DNA from: Apiospora phragmitis
Taxonomy: Eukaryota > Ascomycota > Sordariomycetes > Amphisphaeriales > Apiosporaceae
Direction: 5' to 3'
Length of the DNA stretch: 64,000 bases
NCBI GenBank assembly: GCA_038363925.1
Contig: JAQQWL010000018.1
Coordinates: 248,001 to 312,000 of the forward strand
A program made the position numbers and the translations under genes. Shown here one piece after another: positions 4,563 to 63,872 of this stretch. The notes beneath the pieces are model-generated. The model was not told the DNA's origin. It saw only the letters and a program-made list of their open reading frames with translations, and did not search any database. Position 1 is the stretch's first letter, and each line of letters begins with the position of its first letter.

Positions 4563-5107
4563 TACATCTTTGTTGCGGCTTAGTCAGTTGCATGCCAGTC
4601 CTAAGTTGGTTTGCCAACTTGGAATGATTCCGTTGAAAGTTTTCATCATACCGTTTCAAGTTCTGTCCGGCGTGATTTGCTTCTACCAAAGTCCACCTTG
4701 CGACAACAAGCATGAAAAACGATGATTACCGAATTTGACTCAATTGCGCACAGAGTAACAAGCCATCTTACCACGATTTTAACTACAACAAAAGAGTCGA
4801 GACGAGGACATCATTCGGTTAGATCCCTGCACGCCACAACAGAACAACTGGACCGAACCCTCGTATCATTAATACACCATTCCCTAGAGCGGCCGCAGAC
4901 GAGAGGCAGCAATTCATGGCACCCAACGCTCCCACGGAGGCTCGGCATATTGGTTCTTTGGCAGCACGCGATGCCTCCGAAATAGTATGTATGCTTTCCG
5001 GGCATTGGGTTACGTCAAAGCTAACGGCTATCCTCCCAGATTGATCCAGATAATGGTCCCAGAGAAGAGCTCCTTGGCCATGCACAGTTCCTGCATGATC
5101 TCGCTCT
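4563..5107. other. No recognised gene
   Basis: A minus-strand frame (4819-5127) exists but resembles nothing I know. Confidence 0.3.
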
Positions 5108-11907: not shown

Positions 11908-12888
11908 CTACGATTCTTTAATAAACAGTCCTGTATGCCGAAAATGTCCCTCTACACTTAACCGTCTTGACCCTACGACGTCTACATACCACTCTAGAAA
12001 AACGGCAAAATCCTGCTGCATTGTATAGAGGTGCCCGTGTCGTTTAATAAAGGCCTTGAGCTCGGCAAAGAACTCTTTAATGGGATTCAAGTCGGGCGAG
12101 TACGGTAACAAGAACAGGAGCTTAACTCCGGCATTGTTACATAGCTGTTAGATTCTATCGGATTAATAAAACGGTGCATTATCCATGATCAGGACAGACT
12201 TCGGTTCCGGCCATCTCCCACATAAAGGCAGAAGCTCTTAAATAAAGTCTTTAAATTCTTTACTATCCGTAAACCCCTGGAAGATACGCGAAAGCATAAT
12301 GCCGTCTTGGGTGTAAGCCGGCAGGATCTGGTACCTACGACTACGGTGGAACCGTGCTATTTGTACGGGTGCCACGCCTTAAGGAGACCACCCGGTTCGT
12401 CGAAATCCCGCACGCTTGTTACAACCCGATTCGTTAATGTACACTAGGTGGTAAGAACGGAAGTCGGATAGAGTATGGCTATAAAAGTCGCGTAGGTCGG
12501 CATTCCGTTCTTCGGCGACGCGTCGGGTAGTTTTCTTAGACCATCCGATGGACGCGAGGGCTCTGCTCACGCTTATTTTCGTCACCTCGACGTCGAACTC
12601 GGCCGCGAGAAATGCGACCATCTCGTCCTGGTACATTTCGGGCCTCTCGATCAAACGATCGCATAGAGCGTCAATCATCGGCGGCGTGATGGTTCGAGGT
12701 CGTCCGACGGCGTTTCGAGGCGCTCTGGTGGTGCGAAAGCATCGCAGGTTCGCTCGGATCGTACGAATAGAACGGGTGCTACACCCAACAGCTTCCGCAA
12801 TCTGTTTATTAGCAAACTGATTACTCTCGATCATGACTTGGGCGCGTTCGTGTGTAGCCTCTGCCAGGTTTGGGGCCATTAATGTCAC
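11908..12888 (-). mobile_element. Tc1/mariner-type transposase relic
   Basis: A single reading frame across 981 bp encodes a mariner-like transposase, broken by four TAA stops (after GFRRTGWSP, after EFKDFI, and twice around the VLIMDNAPFY block). The N-terminus has a homeodomain-like HTH (about residues 15-75) with the linker GRPRTITPPMIDAL. The DDE_3 catalytic core follows: first acidic position in VYINESGC, second in LIMDNAPFY, third region LPYSPDLNPIKEFFAELK. The first catalytic Asp appears as Asn (usually VDESG), a G-to-A change, so the protein would be inactive even without the stops. I could not delimit terminal inverted repeats. Stops and the Asn change are compatible with RIP. Confidence 0.8.
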
Positions 12889-13341
12889 CTTGATGGCGGA
12901 TGCGTGGATGGGGGTTAATGTCTTTGTTCTGGGTGTTCCAAGACAAGAACAAAGGCACGCTTAGGCCACCTGCCGCCTAAAAGCCCCGCCACGGGACGAC
13001 TACCCCCCCCCCCCTCCCCAATACCTGCCTGAGAAGGCTGCTACATTGCGACTATTCACTAGACATTACAACAACAGGCAAATCTCCCTGTGCATCTACC
13101 AATTACATCGCCATACGCCAACGTCAAACACAGGAAAAACGACTCGATTGGCAGGACGTGCAGATCCCGTGACTGGCTCAGCCTCATCACAATTACCCCG
13201 ACAACGTTCGACAATGTGTGCCTTGTGCTGGACTCCTGTTCAGCAGGCCCAGCCCTATGCCTGCATGGCCTCAATCGTCTTTCACACTTCCAACCGATTG
13301 CCTGGTCCTTAGCCGATGCATCAAGCGACATCCAAGCCGTA
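12889..13341. other. Intergenic with a poly-C tract
   Basis: Holds a run of about 13 C near 13004-13016 and the probable promoter of the NLR gene. The frame can be extended upstream to 13090, but those residues do not resemble the family N-terminus. Confidence 0.4.
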
Positions 13342-16247
13342 ATGGCTGAAGTATTCGCTACTGCAGCCAGCGCCCTTGCCGTTGCTGAATTGACTGCGAA
13401 AGTCATCGAGCTTTGTGTACAATACTCGAAAGATGTCGCAAGCGCGAGGGCTGACATACAACAAATCGTAACTACGGTAACCTGCCTGTATAGCGTCATC
13501 GAGGATGTACAGCAGCTTTTGAAAGGACCCCATAGATGTAAGCTTCTCTCGACAGAGAAGCTCGATGGCGCGCTTCGAGACGGGCAATTACAACTCATCA
13601 GCCTCCATCAGAAGTTGACTTCGAGTAAAACGACGCCATTTGGGTTCAGCACATGGAAATGGCCGTTCCAAGCCAAGGACGTCGACAAGGTTGTCACTCA
13701 TCTAAGGGGATGTAGCCAAACAATATCCTTGGCCTTACAGGTTGATCAAATGTAAGTCGCTTCTTCCGGTCTAGGTCTATTCTTAACTGCTTACAACGTA
13801 TACCTACAGGACCGTTCTTCTTACCATCGATCAAAAACTTGTCCTCGGGAAACTCCCCGTCGCACAAGGAGCTACCTTCGACTCCCATGCCGAAGAACCT
13901 AATCCAATCTGCCTTCGAGACACTCGAGTCGATCTGTTGCGCGAAATCGACGAATGGATCCAGTCTCCGAACGCCGAAGCGATGTTCTGGCTCAATGGCA
14001 TGGCAGGAACGGGCAAGTCGACTATCTCGCGTACCCTAGCGCATACTGCCTCCACGGGCGGGTTTCTTGGTGCTAGCTTCTTCTTCAAACGTGGTGAAGG
14101 GGATCGTGGCGGCGTCTCTAAGTTCATCTCCACCCTGGCAGCGCAGCTGTGCTCACGGGAACCGGCTGTTATACCGCACATCCAAGCTGCTATCGATTCC
14201 GACCCTGCGATCTTCGGAAACGCGATGCGAGAACAAATCGAGAAGCTTCTATTTCAACCGCTATCGAAAATTTCCGGAGCTGCTTATAAAGACCGTGCTC
14301 TTCTAATTGTCGTCGACGCCCTTGACGAGTGCGAGCGCGAGGAGGATATTAGACACCTTATTTACTTGTTCTCGGGCTCGAAAAGACTAAAATCGCCACG
14401 ACTCAAGATCTTTCTTACCAGCAGACCCGAGCTTCCCATCCGTCTTGGCTTTACTGCGATCAAAGGAGCATACCAAGATCTTGTTCTTCACGAGGTTGCT
14501 GGGCCTGTTATTGAGCGGGATATCCGCGCTTTCATCGAAAGTGAGCTCACACAGGTCAGGAATACGTATAATGCTTCCGTGCCAGACAATCGACACGTAC
14601 CCGCCACATGGCCGCGCGAAGCTGACATTCAAACTCTGGTCAAGATGGCGGTGCCACTGTTCATCTTCGCCGCTACCGTCTGTCGCTTTATCGGTGATCG
14701 CAGACTTGGCAGCCCGGATAAAAAGCTTCGAAGGGTTTTAGAACAACACACTACAGGTCTAGAATCCAAACTTAATGCTACGTATTTGCCTGTTTTGGAA
14801 CAGCTGGTCTCCGGTCTTTCAGAACAGGAGCAAAAAGATGCGTTGAGATCGTTCCGCAATGTCGTCGGTTCGATCGTGGTGCTTGCTAGTCCCCTTTCTG
14901 CTTCGGCTCTGGCTCAGTTGCTTGACACTACTTTGGACGACGTGCTAAATAATCTAGACTTACTTTATTCCGTTCTCAGTATCCCCGATTCATCTGAACA
15001 ACCGATCCGGTTGCTGCATCTATCCTTCCGCGACTTCCTTCTCGACCCGGAGAAGCGAGAGAGCAACCAGTTCTGGATTGATGAGAAAGAGGTCCATCGT
15101 CGGCTAGCCACGGAATGTCTGCGAGTCATGAATAGCTCGCTGCGGACGGATATCTGCCAAGTACAAGCACCAGGGACGACACTCTCCGATATCGACCCCC
15201 AGCGAATCAGGGAGCACCTGCGGCCAGAGATACAGTATGCCTGCCGCTACTGGGTTTACCACCTAGAACATTCAGGCACACAGCTCTCCGATAGTGACGA
15301 GGTATACAAATTCTTAACCCGTCACTTCCTCCACTGGCTAGAAGCGCTCAGTTTAATGAACAGAGTTTCGGAAAGCTTAGAAATTCTAGCTACGATAAAA
15401 GGCCTCACTGTAAGTTATAAATTAATTCGTTTCGTTAGGTAGCTAATATCCGTTGAAGTCAAGTCCTACTAAACAACTCGACGCTTTCTTCGACGATGCG
15501 AACCGCTTTATTCTAGCTAACGTTTCTACTATCCAAGTTGCCCCTCTTCAAGTCTATTCATCTGGCCTCCTCTTCGCCCCGAAACAGAGCGTAATCCGCG
15601 CTACATTTCAAGATCTTATCCCACAATGGATCTTGCACCAGCCAGTAGTAGATGACAAGTGGAATAATTGCCGCCAGACGCTCGAGGGCCACAGCTCCTA
15701 CGTCAGCTCGGTGGCGTTCTCGCCCGACAGCAAGCTGGTGGCGTCGGCGTCGTACGACAAGACGGTCAAGGTCTGGGACGCGCAGACGGGCCAAGAGAAG
15801 CAGACGCTCGAGGGCCACAGTTCTTCGGTCAGCTCGGTAGCGTTCTCGCCCGACAGCAAGCTGGTGGCGTCGGCGTCGCGCGACAACACGGTCAAGGTCT
15901 GGGACGCGCAGACGGGCCAAGAGAAGCAGACCACCCACATAGGCACTACTTCCTCTACATTATCATTTAGCCCGGACTCTTCACATCTTCTCACCGCTGT
16001 TGGTGCTATTCCCGTTGGTAGCCAACCTAGCCAGCCATCACCTCCACCGCGCAAGATTGCACGCCTCGGCTATGGTATCAGCGAGGATCGCAGCTGGATA
16101 ACTTGGTATGGAAATTATCTGTTATGGTTACCGCCTGATTTCCGGCCAGTATTATCCGCTGTTGCCGGCTCTTTGATTACGATCGGCTGTGCTTCGGGGA
16201 GGGTGGTTTTTATAGAATACGACATGGAAGGGGTTGGGAAGCAGTAA
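13342..16247 (+). CDS. NACHT-WD40 STAND (NLR-like) receptor, about 932 aa
   Basis: Fungal NOD-like receptor of the HET-E/HNWD type: an N-terminal effector domain, a NACHT NTPase switch and a WD40 sensor. Exons by my reading are 13342-13751, 13810-15409 and 15459-16247, with introns of 58 bp (GTAAGT...CAG) and 49 bp (GTAAGT...AAG, branch GCTAATA; acceptor less certain). The N-terminus (MAEVFATAASALAVAELTAK) matches the Helo-like/fungal STAND N-terminal domain. Walker A is GMAGTGKS (residues 200-207), Walker B LLIVVDALDE (about 301-310), and the sensor LTSRPE follows. The start was chosen at MAEVF because the 84 upstream residues look non-family. WD40 consists of two almost identical 42-residue repeats (743-784, 785-826) and degenerate remains after them. 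Two repeats cannot close a propeller, so the array looks contracted. Such genes mediate heterokaryon incompatibility or xenorecognition. Confidence 0.85.
15675..15926 (+). repeat. Two near-identical 126-bp WD40-coding repeats
   Basis: Units 15675-15800 and 15801-15926 are head-to-tail and differ at few positions. The changes fall in the codons for SY/SS after GHS, Y/R in ASA(S)xD, and K/N beside it. Third-base identity is also high, so the copies are recent or homogenised. Their G+C is clearly above that of the flanking exon. Confidence 0.9.
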
Positions 16248-17331: not shown

Positions 17332-19087
17332 ATGCCTTCCCCCAGCTATACCGAGGACCAGCTAGTCGATACTATATTCGACATTACAGACAACGGCCTC
17401 TCCCTATCGAAATCGGCCCAGAAGCATGGGATTCCCAAGCAGACCCTTTCTGACCGGATGAGGGGCAAGGGAAGCAAGGAGGAGTATAGTCGTGATCAGA
17501 GACTATCGGAGAATGAAGAGAAGAGACTAGTCGACTGGATTCTGCGCCAAGAGAGCCTCGGATATGCCCCCTCCCACTCTCAAATCCGGGCCTACGTAGT
17601 CTCGATTTTGAGCAGGAATGGGGAAGACCTGGAGGCGCACCCTTGGGGGTTAATTGGGTGGCGAGGTTCGTGAAACGCACCGAGAGTATATCGAATAAGA
17701 TGGGCCGGCGTCAGGAGGCAGTTCGGTTCAATAATTTCACCCCCAAGGCCGTCAAATGGTACTTCGATATCAGAGAAGGAATATGGCTGGATCAAGCCAC
17801 AGAACACAGTCAATGTCGATAAGGGAGGCATCATGGCTGGGTTTGGTATGCCCCTGAATTCTCTGGCCAATTCTGAACCTATACTGACTCTCTCAAAGGA
17901 CTGGATAGCTTGGTTGTTGGCTCTTCTGATATGAAACAGAAGGCCTTGCTGAAAGGGGCGCAAACCAGGGCCTGGACCTCCTTTATCGAGGCAGTAACAG
18001 CAGATGGTCGAGCACTCAAGCCAGGAATTATTTTCAAGGGAAAGGACCTCCAGAAGCAGTGGTTCGTTGAGCAGTTCCGGACTATAGCAGACTGGTATTA
18101 TATTACCAGCCCCAATGGGTGGATAGATCACCACATTGCTATAGAGTGGCTCAACCAGGTATACCTGCCACAAACCAAGCCGGCCGACGAAGGAGAAGCT
18201 CGATTGATTATACTAGATGGTCATGGGAGTCACGCACAGGTGAGAGCTTATTTTTCCGATTTTCCTACGTCTGGATTCTGCGATCCTAAGTTGCTGACCC
18301 CTTTTCCAGGATGAGTGGATGGCGACCTGCTTCCTGAACAACGTATACTGTTGTTATCTGCCGGCACATACTAGCCATGGCCTCCAGCCCCTGGATAATG
18401 GGCCATTCAACGCCCTGAAGGCAGCGTATAGGCGAGAGCTCGAGAAGCTGGCTGTATTAACCGATTCCGCACCAGTTGATAAGGTTAACTTTATTAGAGC
18501 CTATTCGGCGGCCAGGTCGGTTAGTCTGACCGAGAAGAATATAAAGTCGGGGTGGAAGGTAACTGGGAATTGGCCAATCTCACGAACTAAGGCCTTGAGC
18601 CACCCAGAAATACAGCCGGACCTGGTTGATACACCCCTGGCAGATGAGGGAGGATGGCGCAGCCCCTGACTCGCCTCGCACGCCGAGAAACGGCCGCCAG
18701 ATCAGAGATCTGGCTATAGGAAAGAGCCCCCTGACTCGCCGACTATTCGGAAAGATGGCCTCTAGTTACGAGTATCAACAGGCCGAGTTAGCAGTTAAGG
18801 ATGCTACTATAGCAAGACTGGAGGAAGAACTGGCTCGAGCCAAGCGCGGAAGGACTAGACGGGCTATACCAAACCCCAACAAGCGCTTTATGGACTTGGC
18901 AGAGGCGCTGGGGGCCCCTGGACAAGAGGAGGTTATAGTCGTGGAAGAGGAGCCCCTTCGTCGCAGAAGGAGGGCTCGAGAGGTTGCGGTGGTAGAGGAG
19001 GAGGAAGAGGACGAGGAGGAGGAGATTGAGCCACCTCAGATCATGACTAGATCTGGTCGCATGGTGAAGCGGCGTAGACTGTCTTAA
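17332..19087 (+). pseudogene. pogo-type transposase, frameshifted
   Basis: Encodes an N-terminal psq HTH (MPSPSYTEDQLVDTIFDI...), a CENP-B/Tc5-type HTH (LVDWILRQESLGYAPSHSQI) and a DDE_1 core. The catalytic Asp positions are visible in NTVNVDKGGIMAGFG, LIILDGHGSHAQ and GLQPLDNGPFN. The C-terminus is coiled-coil and Glu-rich, ending TRSGRMVKRRR. Two introns fit (17846-17898, GTATGC...AAG; 18240-18309, GTGAGA...CAG). Three frame changes break it: near 17640, near 17770 and near 18650. The DDE residues survive, so inactivation is by indels rather than by RIP-type stops. Confidence 0.85.
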
Positions 19088-61343: not shown

Positions 61344-63166
61344 ATGAGGGGCCAATACCCCTTTCGCCTTTCGATACCTCACTTCATGCTGCCACCTGAC
61401 TTCTTCAACATGAAGGATCAGAGAAAATACGAATGCAAGTACTGCTCCCGTCTTTTCAGACGTTCTGAGCACAAGATGCGACATGAGAGGACTCGTCAGT
61501 TATCCCAACTTCCCACTTGTCTGTAGTGTGCTAATCGACCTGCAGATACGAAGGAAAAGCCCTTTGTTTGCGATTGCAAAGATTCATTTGCGCGATTGGA
61601 TTTATTGAAACGTCACAAAAGACTTGTGCATAAGGATGATTCGAACAAGTCACCGGATATGGCTGCTTCAGCCGTTGAGTCCTTGGATGTGAAATCGTGG
61701 AAGGATCCATCACAGCAGCCAGTAGGCGGCAATAGCACCGATCCGAGGCTGGACGGCGTCCCGGATAGTATCAACCAAAGGAATCAGGTCGAAGCGTTGG
61801 CGCTGTCTTTTGGAAGCGGTGAGTGGAAACCGAGCCGACTCGAGTCAAATATTTACTGATGAGTCTCCAGGGGACCAAAGAACCTGGATCAACGACATCG
61901 ACTTGCCGGAGAAAATGGATTTAGATATAAGTGGACATATCCCGTCCTCCAAGCCGTCTCAGACATCGTTGGTGCGATGGAAAGTTGATCCTTTTCCTTG
62001 CTCATTTGATGGCTCGGATAGCTGTTATCCCGTGCCACCATCGCCCGGAACGGTCCATGGAAATCCTTCTTCTAGGCTGTCAGTACCACTTTGCGAATCT
62101 TATCCCCTACCTGCTAGTGGCATTACCCACGTCTCAGCCTGTGCCCAGAGCCCGCTCGCGTCTCACGCTACCGTCCCAAATGACCAACAGCCTGCTCAAG
62201 TCGCTCGATCGCTGGGTAGGTTTGCTTGCGAACCTTTAGCTCCAGTCGCTCCTACCACCGATCTGACACTAGACGATCGTCGGGGTATTGTCAGCGAGCC
62301 CCATCAGAAGGCTCTCTTGCTGCATGACTGTGGCAACGGTGAAGGAGAAGAGAATCCCTCCAGGCACCAACCAGAGCAAGCTGTCCGGATTGGGAGAATT
62401 TCATCGCCCAAGAAAACCGCAGTGGACGTCGGACCACCAATTAGGCCGACATTTGTGGGCTTCATTGGATCGGTGATGGACGCTCTGGTCCTTTTCGAGA
62501 GTTGCTTGAATGGTACGAAGACCGCCGTCCGTCGAAACCCACGCAAAGATGAGCTGTCGAGCCTGATACGTAGCGGCAACATCTTTGTCTACCAGGATAT
62601 ATCCAGTGACATACACCGATGGTGCGACGAGCTGTCTTGGCACAGAGTTCTTCAACCCTCCAAACGCAACACGTTCTCAATTTACCGCGAATTAGTGAAG
62701 CAAGCGATGATCCAGGCGCCTAAGATCAAGAAGGGTGGTCTGGTCAAGAAGGTATTGGCAGTGAAGCATAACGGGATTAAACACTTTTTGGTCTCGTACT
62801 GCATTGAAGATATGGAGAACAAGCTACCCAGGCCTTCCGAGTGCTTGCAGATCACGCTGCGGGATGGGCTTATCTCGGACGGAGGCGGGCAGGAGACTGT
62901 TCTGAAACGAATATCCACGCCTAGTTATCAGAAAGGCAAGAAGCGGAAACGCCGAACTTCGACTGAGAAAAGAGATATATGCCGATTCGTTACGAAAAAT
63001 CCAAAGTATAGCCAAATGGACGTCTCAAACAATTTTAAGATACCCATAAAGTAAGTGCCAGGTTCTAATTTAACGAGTTCTATAAATCTGACTCCTACGT
63101 AGCTCTCTCCATAATATTTTACGAGAGAAACATCGCTGGTTGTCGCATGAAGAGGAAGTGAGATAA
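61344..63166 (+). CDS. C2H2-WOPR-psq fusion regulator, 555 aa
   Basis: Exons 61344-61494, 61546-61818, 61871-63050 and 63103-63166; introns of 51, 52, 51... range (51, 52 and 52 bp), all GT...AG with matching phases. Fingers: Cys31/Cys34/His47/His51 (YECKYCSRLFRRSEHKMRH), then Cys59-x-Cys61 with His74/His79; KEKPF is the linker and ARLDLLKRHKR the fungal-style second finger. A disordered stretch follows (about 80-330). WOPRa runs from FVGFIGSVMDALVLFESC (336) through LIRSGNIFVYQDISS and HRWCDELSW to YREL (about 416); WOPRb is GLVKKVLAV...HFLVSYCIED (430-455). The C-terminus (about 499-550) has a basic patch KKRKRRTSTEKRDI and a psq/CENP-B-like HTH (ICRFVTKNPKYSQMDVSNNF, then SLHNILREKHRWL). 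WOPR proteins (Wor1, Ryp1, Sge1, Gti1, Pac2) are master switches of morphology and virulence-related expression; they normally lack the other two domains. Start ATG 61344; MLPP and MKDQ are alternatives. Confidence 0.85.
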
Positions 63167-63872
63167 GAAGTGCCTTTGGTCGTTACTGCCCGTTGTGGAT
63201 AGTAACGATGGAGAAGTTCGCATCGATCGACATCAACAACCTGCCTGAAGAGGAACACGTGCTGTTCTACAAATTCGACGACATCTTCAAGGGCAGGGAA
63301 GAGGTCGTCAGGTCGTGGCGGTCACCCACAACCACTCAGCTACGGAGCTCACACTGCCACAATCAATGGAGCATCACTAGACTGGCCTACATGGCGACAT
63401 GCCCGTGGGGACTAGACTGCTGTTATGGTCTCCTATTGTTTTCTTTTCTTCTTTTTCCTTTTTTACCTGTACTCTATCTTTAGTCTGCCTGATGTGCGTA
63501 CTTGCCAGCTCCTAGGAGAGAAGTCAGAGATACGTAGGGCTTAATGGGTCCCACGTGCTCGTTTCTCGCGCCACACCATAACTCATAATACGATTTCCAT
63601 ACGGGCCTCATACAGCTTCACCGCGCTTTTGCCGCCTGTGCATACACATGCAAGCAACTGTGTGCGTAGTACCACTCCGTCTGAGATAAAGCCATGCATG
63701 CGCAGCTAGTGCTTTCAATGAAGTAAAGGGGCGTGCGCCCATCGGGGGAAGAGGCTGTGGTACCCTGGACTGTGGTCGGTCTGTATAATTAGCAAGGCAG
63801 CAAGCACTGGGCTATTTCATCCAGGAGAGTACATAACCTCCCAATACAAAGATTCTTTGGGGCCTAGTCAAA
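63167..63872. other. No recognised gene
   Basis: 3' flank of the WOPR-domain gene. A frame at 63193-63483 ends in a Phe/Leu-rich run and looks like chance coding of a T-rich tract. Confidence 0.35.

Follow-up and report, generated by a model that had tools for sequence, protein, structure and literature searches.

WOPR proteins act as master switches in the development of fungi. Most fungal genomes hold two WOPR genes according to passages of PMC4917244, the DNA-contacting residues of WOPR proteins are described as highly conserved in a part of PMC5140021, and the linkers between the two halves of the domain (WOPRa and WOPRb) measure 25-100 amino acids in known members according to an excerpt of PMC4567300. 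Two further kinds of DNA-binding protein are relevant here, namely the ADR1/AmdA-like regulators that combine C2H2 fingers with a Fungal_trans domain, and proteins with the helix-turn-helix (HTH) of the CENP-B/pogo family (CENP-B_N, PF04218), a class that derives from pogo-like transposases as stated in sections of PMC10799480. Here, we describe a gene from Apiospora phragmitis in which modules related to all three lie in one chain. The gene is located in a 64,000-nucleotide stretch of contig JAQQWL010000018.1 (positions 248,001 to 312,000 of the forward strand, or G000:C17:248001-312000; hereafter the window), and the host genome searched comprises 52.7 Mb in 19 contigs. Compared with the WOPR (Gti1_Pac2) regulators Sge1, Wor1 and Ryp1, which carry the domain at the N terminus and continue into a long disordered tail, the window protein has its WOPR domain in the C-terminal half, lacks such a tail, and differs by a 13-residue linker, a rewritten recognition loop and WSPSR motif, and the extra fingers and HTH.

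Results

Joined together, the four exons (61344-61494, 61546-61818, 61871-63050 and 63103-63163) keep one reading frame, with phases 1, 1 and 2, and encode a protein of 555 amino acids with a TAA (63164-63166) as its stop. The NCBI protein P0001 (A. phragmitis, 533 amino acids) is the identical four-exon protein taken from the second methionine, and it is labelled 'Gti1/Pac2 family protein' with that family alone as its precomputed Pfam entry. Thus, the single spliced protein with fitting intron phases that a first-pass annotation of the window had proposed is intact and matches the NCBI model, and the WOPRa and WOPRb blocks and most of the HTH do share the one open frame of exon 3. The start was placed differently. 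Since both P0001 and P0114, a protein of A. aurea, begin with MKDQRK, that is, at the ATG at 61410, this start is preferred over 61344; a paralog of the finger half on another contig (the C11 gene, described below) adds an ATG at the matching place in the aligned DNA (E 1.0; weak on its own). Therefore, the exon chain of the earlier model (61344..63166) stands and its first codon probably does not. Intron 1 has an unusual donor, and the C11 gene has the identical donor at the same place. At the level of sequence, the observation of three modules in one protein is confirmed as a whole.

Table 1. Features of the chimeric gene, with positions counted from the first letter of the window.
Feature	Positions	Strand	Evidence
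Upstream 22 codons of the earlier model, probably 5' untranslated region	61344..61409	+	P0001/P0114 starts; C11 ATG (weak)
Exon 1 coding part, first C2H2 finger (C9, C12, H25; H29 completed by exon 2)	61410..61494	+	Profile, PDB, model, ligand reading
Intron 1, 51 nt, phase 1, GTCAGT donor	61495..61545	+	Donor and 3' end kept in C11 paralog
Exon 2: end of finger 1, finger 2 (C37, C39, H52, H57; 61569-61631), disordered linker	61546..61818	+	Sequence, relatives, model
Intron 2, 52 nt, phase 1, GTGAGT donor	61819..61870	+	Translated at start of P0002/P0003; donor region fits P0115 end
Exon 3: linker, WOPR domain, first part of HTH, single open frame	61871..63050	+	Reading frame
WOPRa (P0001 residues 311-396)	62443..62700	+	
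WOPR recognition loop between edge strands (residues 362-375, DISSDIHRWCDELS), then W-HRVL insertion (62641-62652)	62596..62637	+	Putative placement from model and passages of PMC9252788
WOPRb (residues 405-455)	62725..62877	+	Profile, alignment, model
CENP-B-type HTH, first part (residues 475-512), opens with basic cluster GKKRKRR	62935..63050	+	Profile, models
Intron 3, 52 nt, phase 2, GTAAGT donor, within HTH	63051..63102	+	P0002/P0003 appear to end here, judged from protein
Exon 4: third HTH helix (NSLHNILREKHRWL), C-terminal end, stop TAA	63103..63166	+	Splice frame, model

The WOPR domain is the module with the clearest profile match (Gti1_Pac2, PF09729; 82.3 bits in two stretches against a cut-off of 23.6), and the search of the host genome gave six WOPR places, one of which is window 62449-62712. 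The predicted structure and the alignment show that the WOPR fold and the DxxxW motif are kept; for the WOPR and HTH parts we used the AlphaFold model whose alignment had no finger rows. The linker between WOPRa and WOPRb (YREL to GGLVKK) has 13 residues, compared to 76-77 in three copies of the same genome. Both the short linker and the altered WSPSR motif, which had been pointed out before, are common to the two relatives P0002 and P0003, and in the motif, substitutions are combined with an insertion of about three residues that the family members share. The recognition loop that precedes it (SSGIKRWTDG) is altered as well, and its residues differ among the three family members. Since the stretch GIKRWTDG..WSPSR is not kept (the window reads DIHRWCDELSWHRVLQPS, with D and W of DxxxW retained), we file the protein as a divergent WOPR-domain chimera and not as a typical WOPR regulator. 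Furthermore, 25 of 61 near-invariant WOPR positions are changed in the window protein compared to 0-7 in 31 ordinary Sge1-side rows, and in 23 of the 61 columns the change is found in all three members (P0002 has a gap in one of these columns). This suggests that the domain is probably no reader of the standard WOPR site, in line with the changed DNA specificity that the first-pass annotation had suspected.

In the WOPR tree, the three family members group together with 100% support and fall on the Sge1 side, not on the Pac2 side; the stem of their clade is very long, at 1.3 or 2.5 changes per column according to the model used. The canonical Sge1-type gene of the genome is L001 on contig C15 (a 563-amino-acid frame), with further copies L002-L004, and the window gene does not qualify as an Sge1 orthologue. 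Contig C17, a small contig of 888 kb that includes the window, holds three of the six WOPR places (at about 310, 362 and 616 kb). Copy L004 (C5:611858-612391, minus strand) has a TAG in the conserved WOPR stretch and is apparently broken.

Autoregulation through a WOPR site was considered and set aside, as the window contains no exact copy of the Wor1 site TTAAAGTTT and a single place with one mismatch at 4634, far from the gene; the mean for such places was 12.3 (sd 4.4) in 100 shuffles and the median was 11 in 500 permutations. Genome-wide, there are 2440 exact TTAAAGTTT matches versus 314 for the reversed control, and the 100 places listed, all on C1, look clustered. This excess may be an effect of repeat-induced point mutation, because the reversed control contains TG, which that process would destroy.

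The two C2H2 fingers score just under the zf-C2H2 cut-off of 25.2 bits (19.4 for the whole protein and 24.7 for an N-terminal piece), and a full set of zinc ligands is present in each, eight in total (Table 1). A PDB sequence comparison gave 110 distinct matches at E <=1e-5, with many C2H2 proteins among the best 60 of the 110, and the ADR1 structure (2adr) matches the finger region at E 6e-13. In AlphaFold, the fingers reach a predicted local distance difference test score (pLDDT) of 82-95 when finger relatives are in the alignment and stay below 50 when there are none; the model aligned on the fingers has no WOPR fold, and only its finger and HTH parts were used. Hence the pair of fingers proposed earlier holds up on ligands, PDB matches and model, despite the Pfam score. 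Their contact positions read R-E-H-R and R-D-L-R, which we take to resemble the contacts of ADR1. Finger 2 has a C-x1-C spacing, and so does the C11 paralog.

This paralog contains the sole own-genome DNA match to the coding part at E <=1e-5 (C11:923214-923282, minus strand). It has an equal finger pair, with introns 1 and 2 in equal phases, and its DNA is 79% identical to that of the window gene over 84 columns and 80% over 69, spanning both edges of intron 1. The likeness extends into the linker (TDPRLD), and the protein match at C11:922638, which covers the linker as well, has an E of 2e-6. Downstream, the C11 gene carries a Fungal_trans domain (65.3 bits), for which a Pfam scan of the whole window protein gave no match. 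The window gene thus shares with the ADR1/AmdA-like C2H2-Fungal_trans regulators, represented by this gene at C11:922-923 kb, two fingers, the place and phase of the first two introns and part of the following linker, but it has the WOPR domain and HTH instead of Fungal_trans. The shared fingers, introns and linker indicate that the window gene and an ordinary C2H2/Fungal_trans regulator are related in their 5' parts.

The HTH is the most weakly supported of the three modules in the profile comparisons. CENP-B_N scored 15.7 and 15.4 bits on tail cuts of 61 and 64 amino acids, compared to a cut-off of 21.2, and the profile scan gave no match for tail cuts of 46 and 66 amino acids or for the whole window protein. 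The tails of the two relatives score above the cut-off (25.3 and 22.9 bits), whereas P0002 and P0003 as wholes score below it (20.5 and 17.9, respectively). The first-pass annotation had called this module a psq/CENP-B HTH. The CENP-B half of that name is supported by the relatives' tails, and since HTH_psq was not reported in the protein scans, 'CENP-B type' is the better name. Unlike the typical CENP-B/pogo HTH, it is C-terminal, split by an intron and itself below the Pfam cut-off, and no DDE family was found in the window protein by a Pfam scan, so it does not have the make-up of a pogo-type transposase. With the tail as query, the own-genome search recovered nothing but the tail itself (E up to 1). 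When the frames of the window and the fetched loci were scanned with a profile built from the three tails, the gene itself alone was above threshold, and a protein-database search with the tail region gave only P0001 among 12 candidates. The genome search with CENP-B_N, with no match at E <=0.001, says little because the window's own HTH was missed as well. In the HTH_psq genome search there were 42 matches, and the HTHs beside resident DDE_1 elements are HTH_psq (in the DDE_1 genome search, 150 of 376 candidates were scored). For the proposal that a WOPR switch was captured by a transposase-like HTH, the CENP-B class speaks in favor, and the missing DDE domain, the missing second copy and the HTH_psq type of the resident elements speak against. 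Overall, the fusion of three DNA-binding modules stands, and the transposase-like capture survives only by half.

Pogo-like elements were observed in several places. One lies on the plus strand of the window (HTH_psq at 17350-17478, DDE_1 at 17967-18245 and 18310-18555, the matched parts being stop-free), far from the gene. Elements of like layout with HTH_psq and DDE_1 lie at C17:612974-614182, about 1.4 kb from L003, and at C5:618580-619788, about 6 kb from the broken L004.

The whole-protein search covered 7979 candidates of 305-971 amino acids and returned 113 proteins at E <=0.001, of which only P0001, P0002 and P0003 cover at least 70% of the query; none of the 113 is annotated with both Gti1_Pac2 and a C2H2 family. 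P0002 (from ENA) and P0003 (source lgn) are both unspliced; judged from the proteins, their frames run from within intron 2 to the donor of intron 3, where the TAA of that donor would close an unspliced frame. The search with exon 2 gave two proteins, P0115 and P0114, from three candidates. P0115 is an unspliced frame of exon 1, intron 1 and exon 2 with about 60% identity, while P0114 is 98% identical over exon 2, with six differences in the first 120 residues. Among the relatives with about 60% identity, the finger exons are thus represented by the open reading frame of P0115 and the WOPR-HTH exon by those of P0002 and P0003, with splice sites apparently in the same places. The end of P0115, SEWEAS, could share DNA with the MSGKR that opens P0002 and P0003, as could 9 of 4000 random hexapeptides, and the fit is unique in P0115. 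This compatibility suggests that the finger and WOPR halves may be connected in a second lineage too. As far as the searches reach, the fusion looks limited to Apiospora and relatives.

Elsewhere in the window, a frame for a NACHT-type NTPase followed by WD40 repeats forms an NLR-like gene at 13787-16244 (plus strand). On the minus strand at 12382-12960 there is an HTH_33/HTH_32 piece, presumably as in IS630/Tc1-type transposases. Downstream of the chimeric gene, 63207-63361 and 63607-63735 resemble C3:2.625-2.628 Mb and C17:1694-2091, the latter at most 2.1 kb from the contig end.

Discussion

We consider it probable that this is a real gene for a chimeric DNA-binding protein, which came from a lineage-restricted fusion of C2H2 and Sge1-type WOPR genes and acts as a redirected regulator. 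Its parts would be two ADR1-like C2H2 fingers, an Sge1-type WOPR domain and a CENP-B-type HTH. The fusion would have occurred in or near the Apiospora lineage, joining the 5' exons of a C2H2/Fungal_trans gene copy, first introns included, to a copy of an Sge1-type WOPR gene, whose tail would have been lost in the process, with the HTH in its place. The basic cluster before the HTH suggests a nuclear location, the fingers and the HTH may both bind DNA, and recognition of the standard WOPR site would be changed or lost with the rewritten loop, the DxxxW brace being kept. A regulator that has neither the Fungal_trans domain of one parent nor the long tail of the other could compete with its parents or redirect them at their targets, in a mode that would differ from the classic WOPR switch. 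As far as sequence comparison can tell, the history of the gene is clearer at its finger end than at its HTH end.

Several observations weigh against this reading. With the fingers alone, other own-genome genes outscore C11 at the protein level (the best is C4:2709517, 55%, E 3e-11), so that C11 is singled out because of its intron and linker likeness and not because of its finger score; moreover, a candidate trace of the C11 exon past intron 2 in the linker was rejected, as the local alignments were no better than shuffles (fractions of 0.36, 0.66 and 0.14 among 1000). The three family members joined the four Apiospora copies with 57% support in one tree and were not resolved in the second (AU, approximately unbiased test, p 0.66, not rejected), and of the columns that separate the Apiospora copies from 25 other rows, nine place the trio with Apiospora and six with the others. 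The genome's own Pac2-like WOPR, L005, departs from the Sge1-side constants about as much (21 of 59), and therefore the count of changed positions is by itself no proof of lost binding. A shared contig for P0115 and P0002/P0003 is suggested by their proteins alone. One of the six differences of P0114 removes the first cysteine of finger 1 (C9 to R), and the annotated model of this protein leaves the WOPR frame; in P0115, the final histidine of finger 2 and contact residues of finger 1 are gone. Finally, the WOPR domain is hardly better kept than the linker. For the three pairs, identities are 67, 76 and 63% in the linker, 78, 73 and 71% in WOPRa, 78, 76 and 71% in WOPRb, and 31, 46 and 41% in the HTH; neither the comparison of WOPR with linker (71-78% versus 63-76%; p 0.04, 0.78 and 0.24) nor that of the less conserved HTH with linker (p 5e-5, 6e-4 and 0.017) uses independent pairs, the borders were chosen with the alignment in view, and in the last HTH columns spliced residues are set against unspliced ones.

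The loss of a zinc ligand in the A. aurea copy makes decay a serious rival, according to which a real fusion is on its way out under weak or no selection, at speeds that vary among Apiospora lineages, and has no present function. The second ligand loss in P0115, the other exon 3 frame annotated for P0114, the long WOPR stem with its many changed constant columns, and the similar divergence rates of WOPR and linker fit this explanation. In the window gene, on the other hand, ligands and splice sites are intact and the WOPR fold and DxxxW are kept, and the three proteins, at about 60% identity, align throughout in one frame despite several gaps. When exon 3 was allowed to drift neutrally by substitutions only to 62% protein identity, 7.7 stops arose on average and 0 of 400 runs were stop-free, and at 79% identity there were 4.2 stops with 1.75% of runs stop-free, with the caveat, itself a further point against a functional gene, that protein databases list open frames only. 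Three cases thus show a preserved reading frame, although some copies have eroding domains. We therefore hold decay to be likely in some lineages and possible in all, and as an account of the whole family it is possible but unlikely. It is more doubtful still that the protein is a lineage-specific regulator made by exon shuffling, in which the WOPR domain and the fingers form the platform for a fast-changing HTH that keeps its core while its aim shifts towards a moving target, for instance transposon ends.

There may also be two products, if the finger exons are spliced to another acceptor (ending at 62075) into a different frame as in A. aurea, leaving the WOPR-HTH part separate or unexpressed. 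Since the last 53 residues of P0114 are found unchanged in the window at 62078-62236, directly after a TTCTAG acceptor, such a splice is possible there. The NCBI model for A. phragmitis uses 61871, however, relatives in which exon 3 reads as WOPR retain the sequence of intron 2 and the position of its donor, and the Pfam matches of P0114 are fingers only, so this arrangement is very unlikely. Least probable to us is a link to transposons, by which the protein, guided to transposon DNA by an HTH from a pogo/CENP-B-type transposase, would be a domesticated silencer or would help an element. The class of the HTH and its faster change compared to the linker, in pairs that are not independent, agree with such a role; the protein has no DDE domain, no second copy of the gene or of the HTH was found in its own genome, and the resident elements show HTH_psq.

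No paper on WOPR and CENP-B together was found in the openly licensed PMC literature, nor was a description of the C2H2-WOPR-HTH architecture in its titles, abstract starts and passages, and the main text of PMC10799480 does not mention WOPR or Gti1. The modules are of known kinds, and their fusion in one chain looks new. If the chimeric gene is functional, as we favor, a natural chimera with a kept WOPR fold, a rewritten recognition loop and two added modules would offer a direct way to ask how the contact surface of a WOPR protein can change, as well as a route to asking how new regulators arise by the fusion of regulator genes. If it is decaying, it would be a well-marked failed fusion in a genome where a relative of one parent survives.
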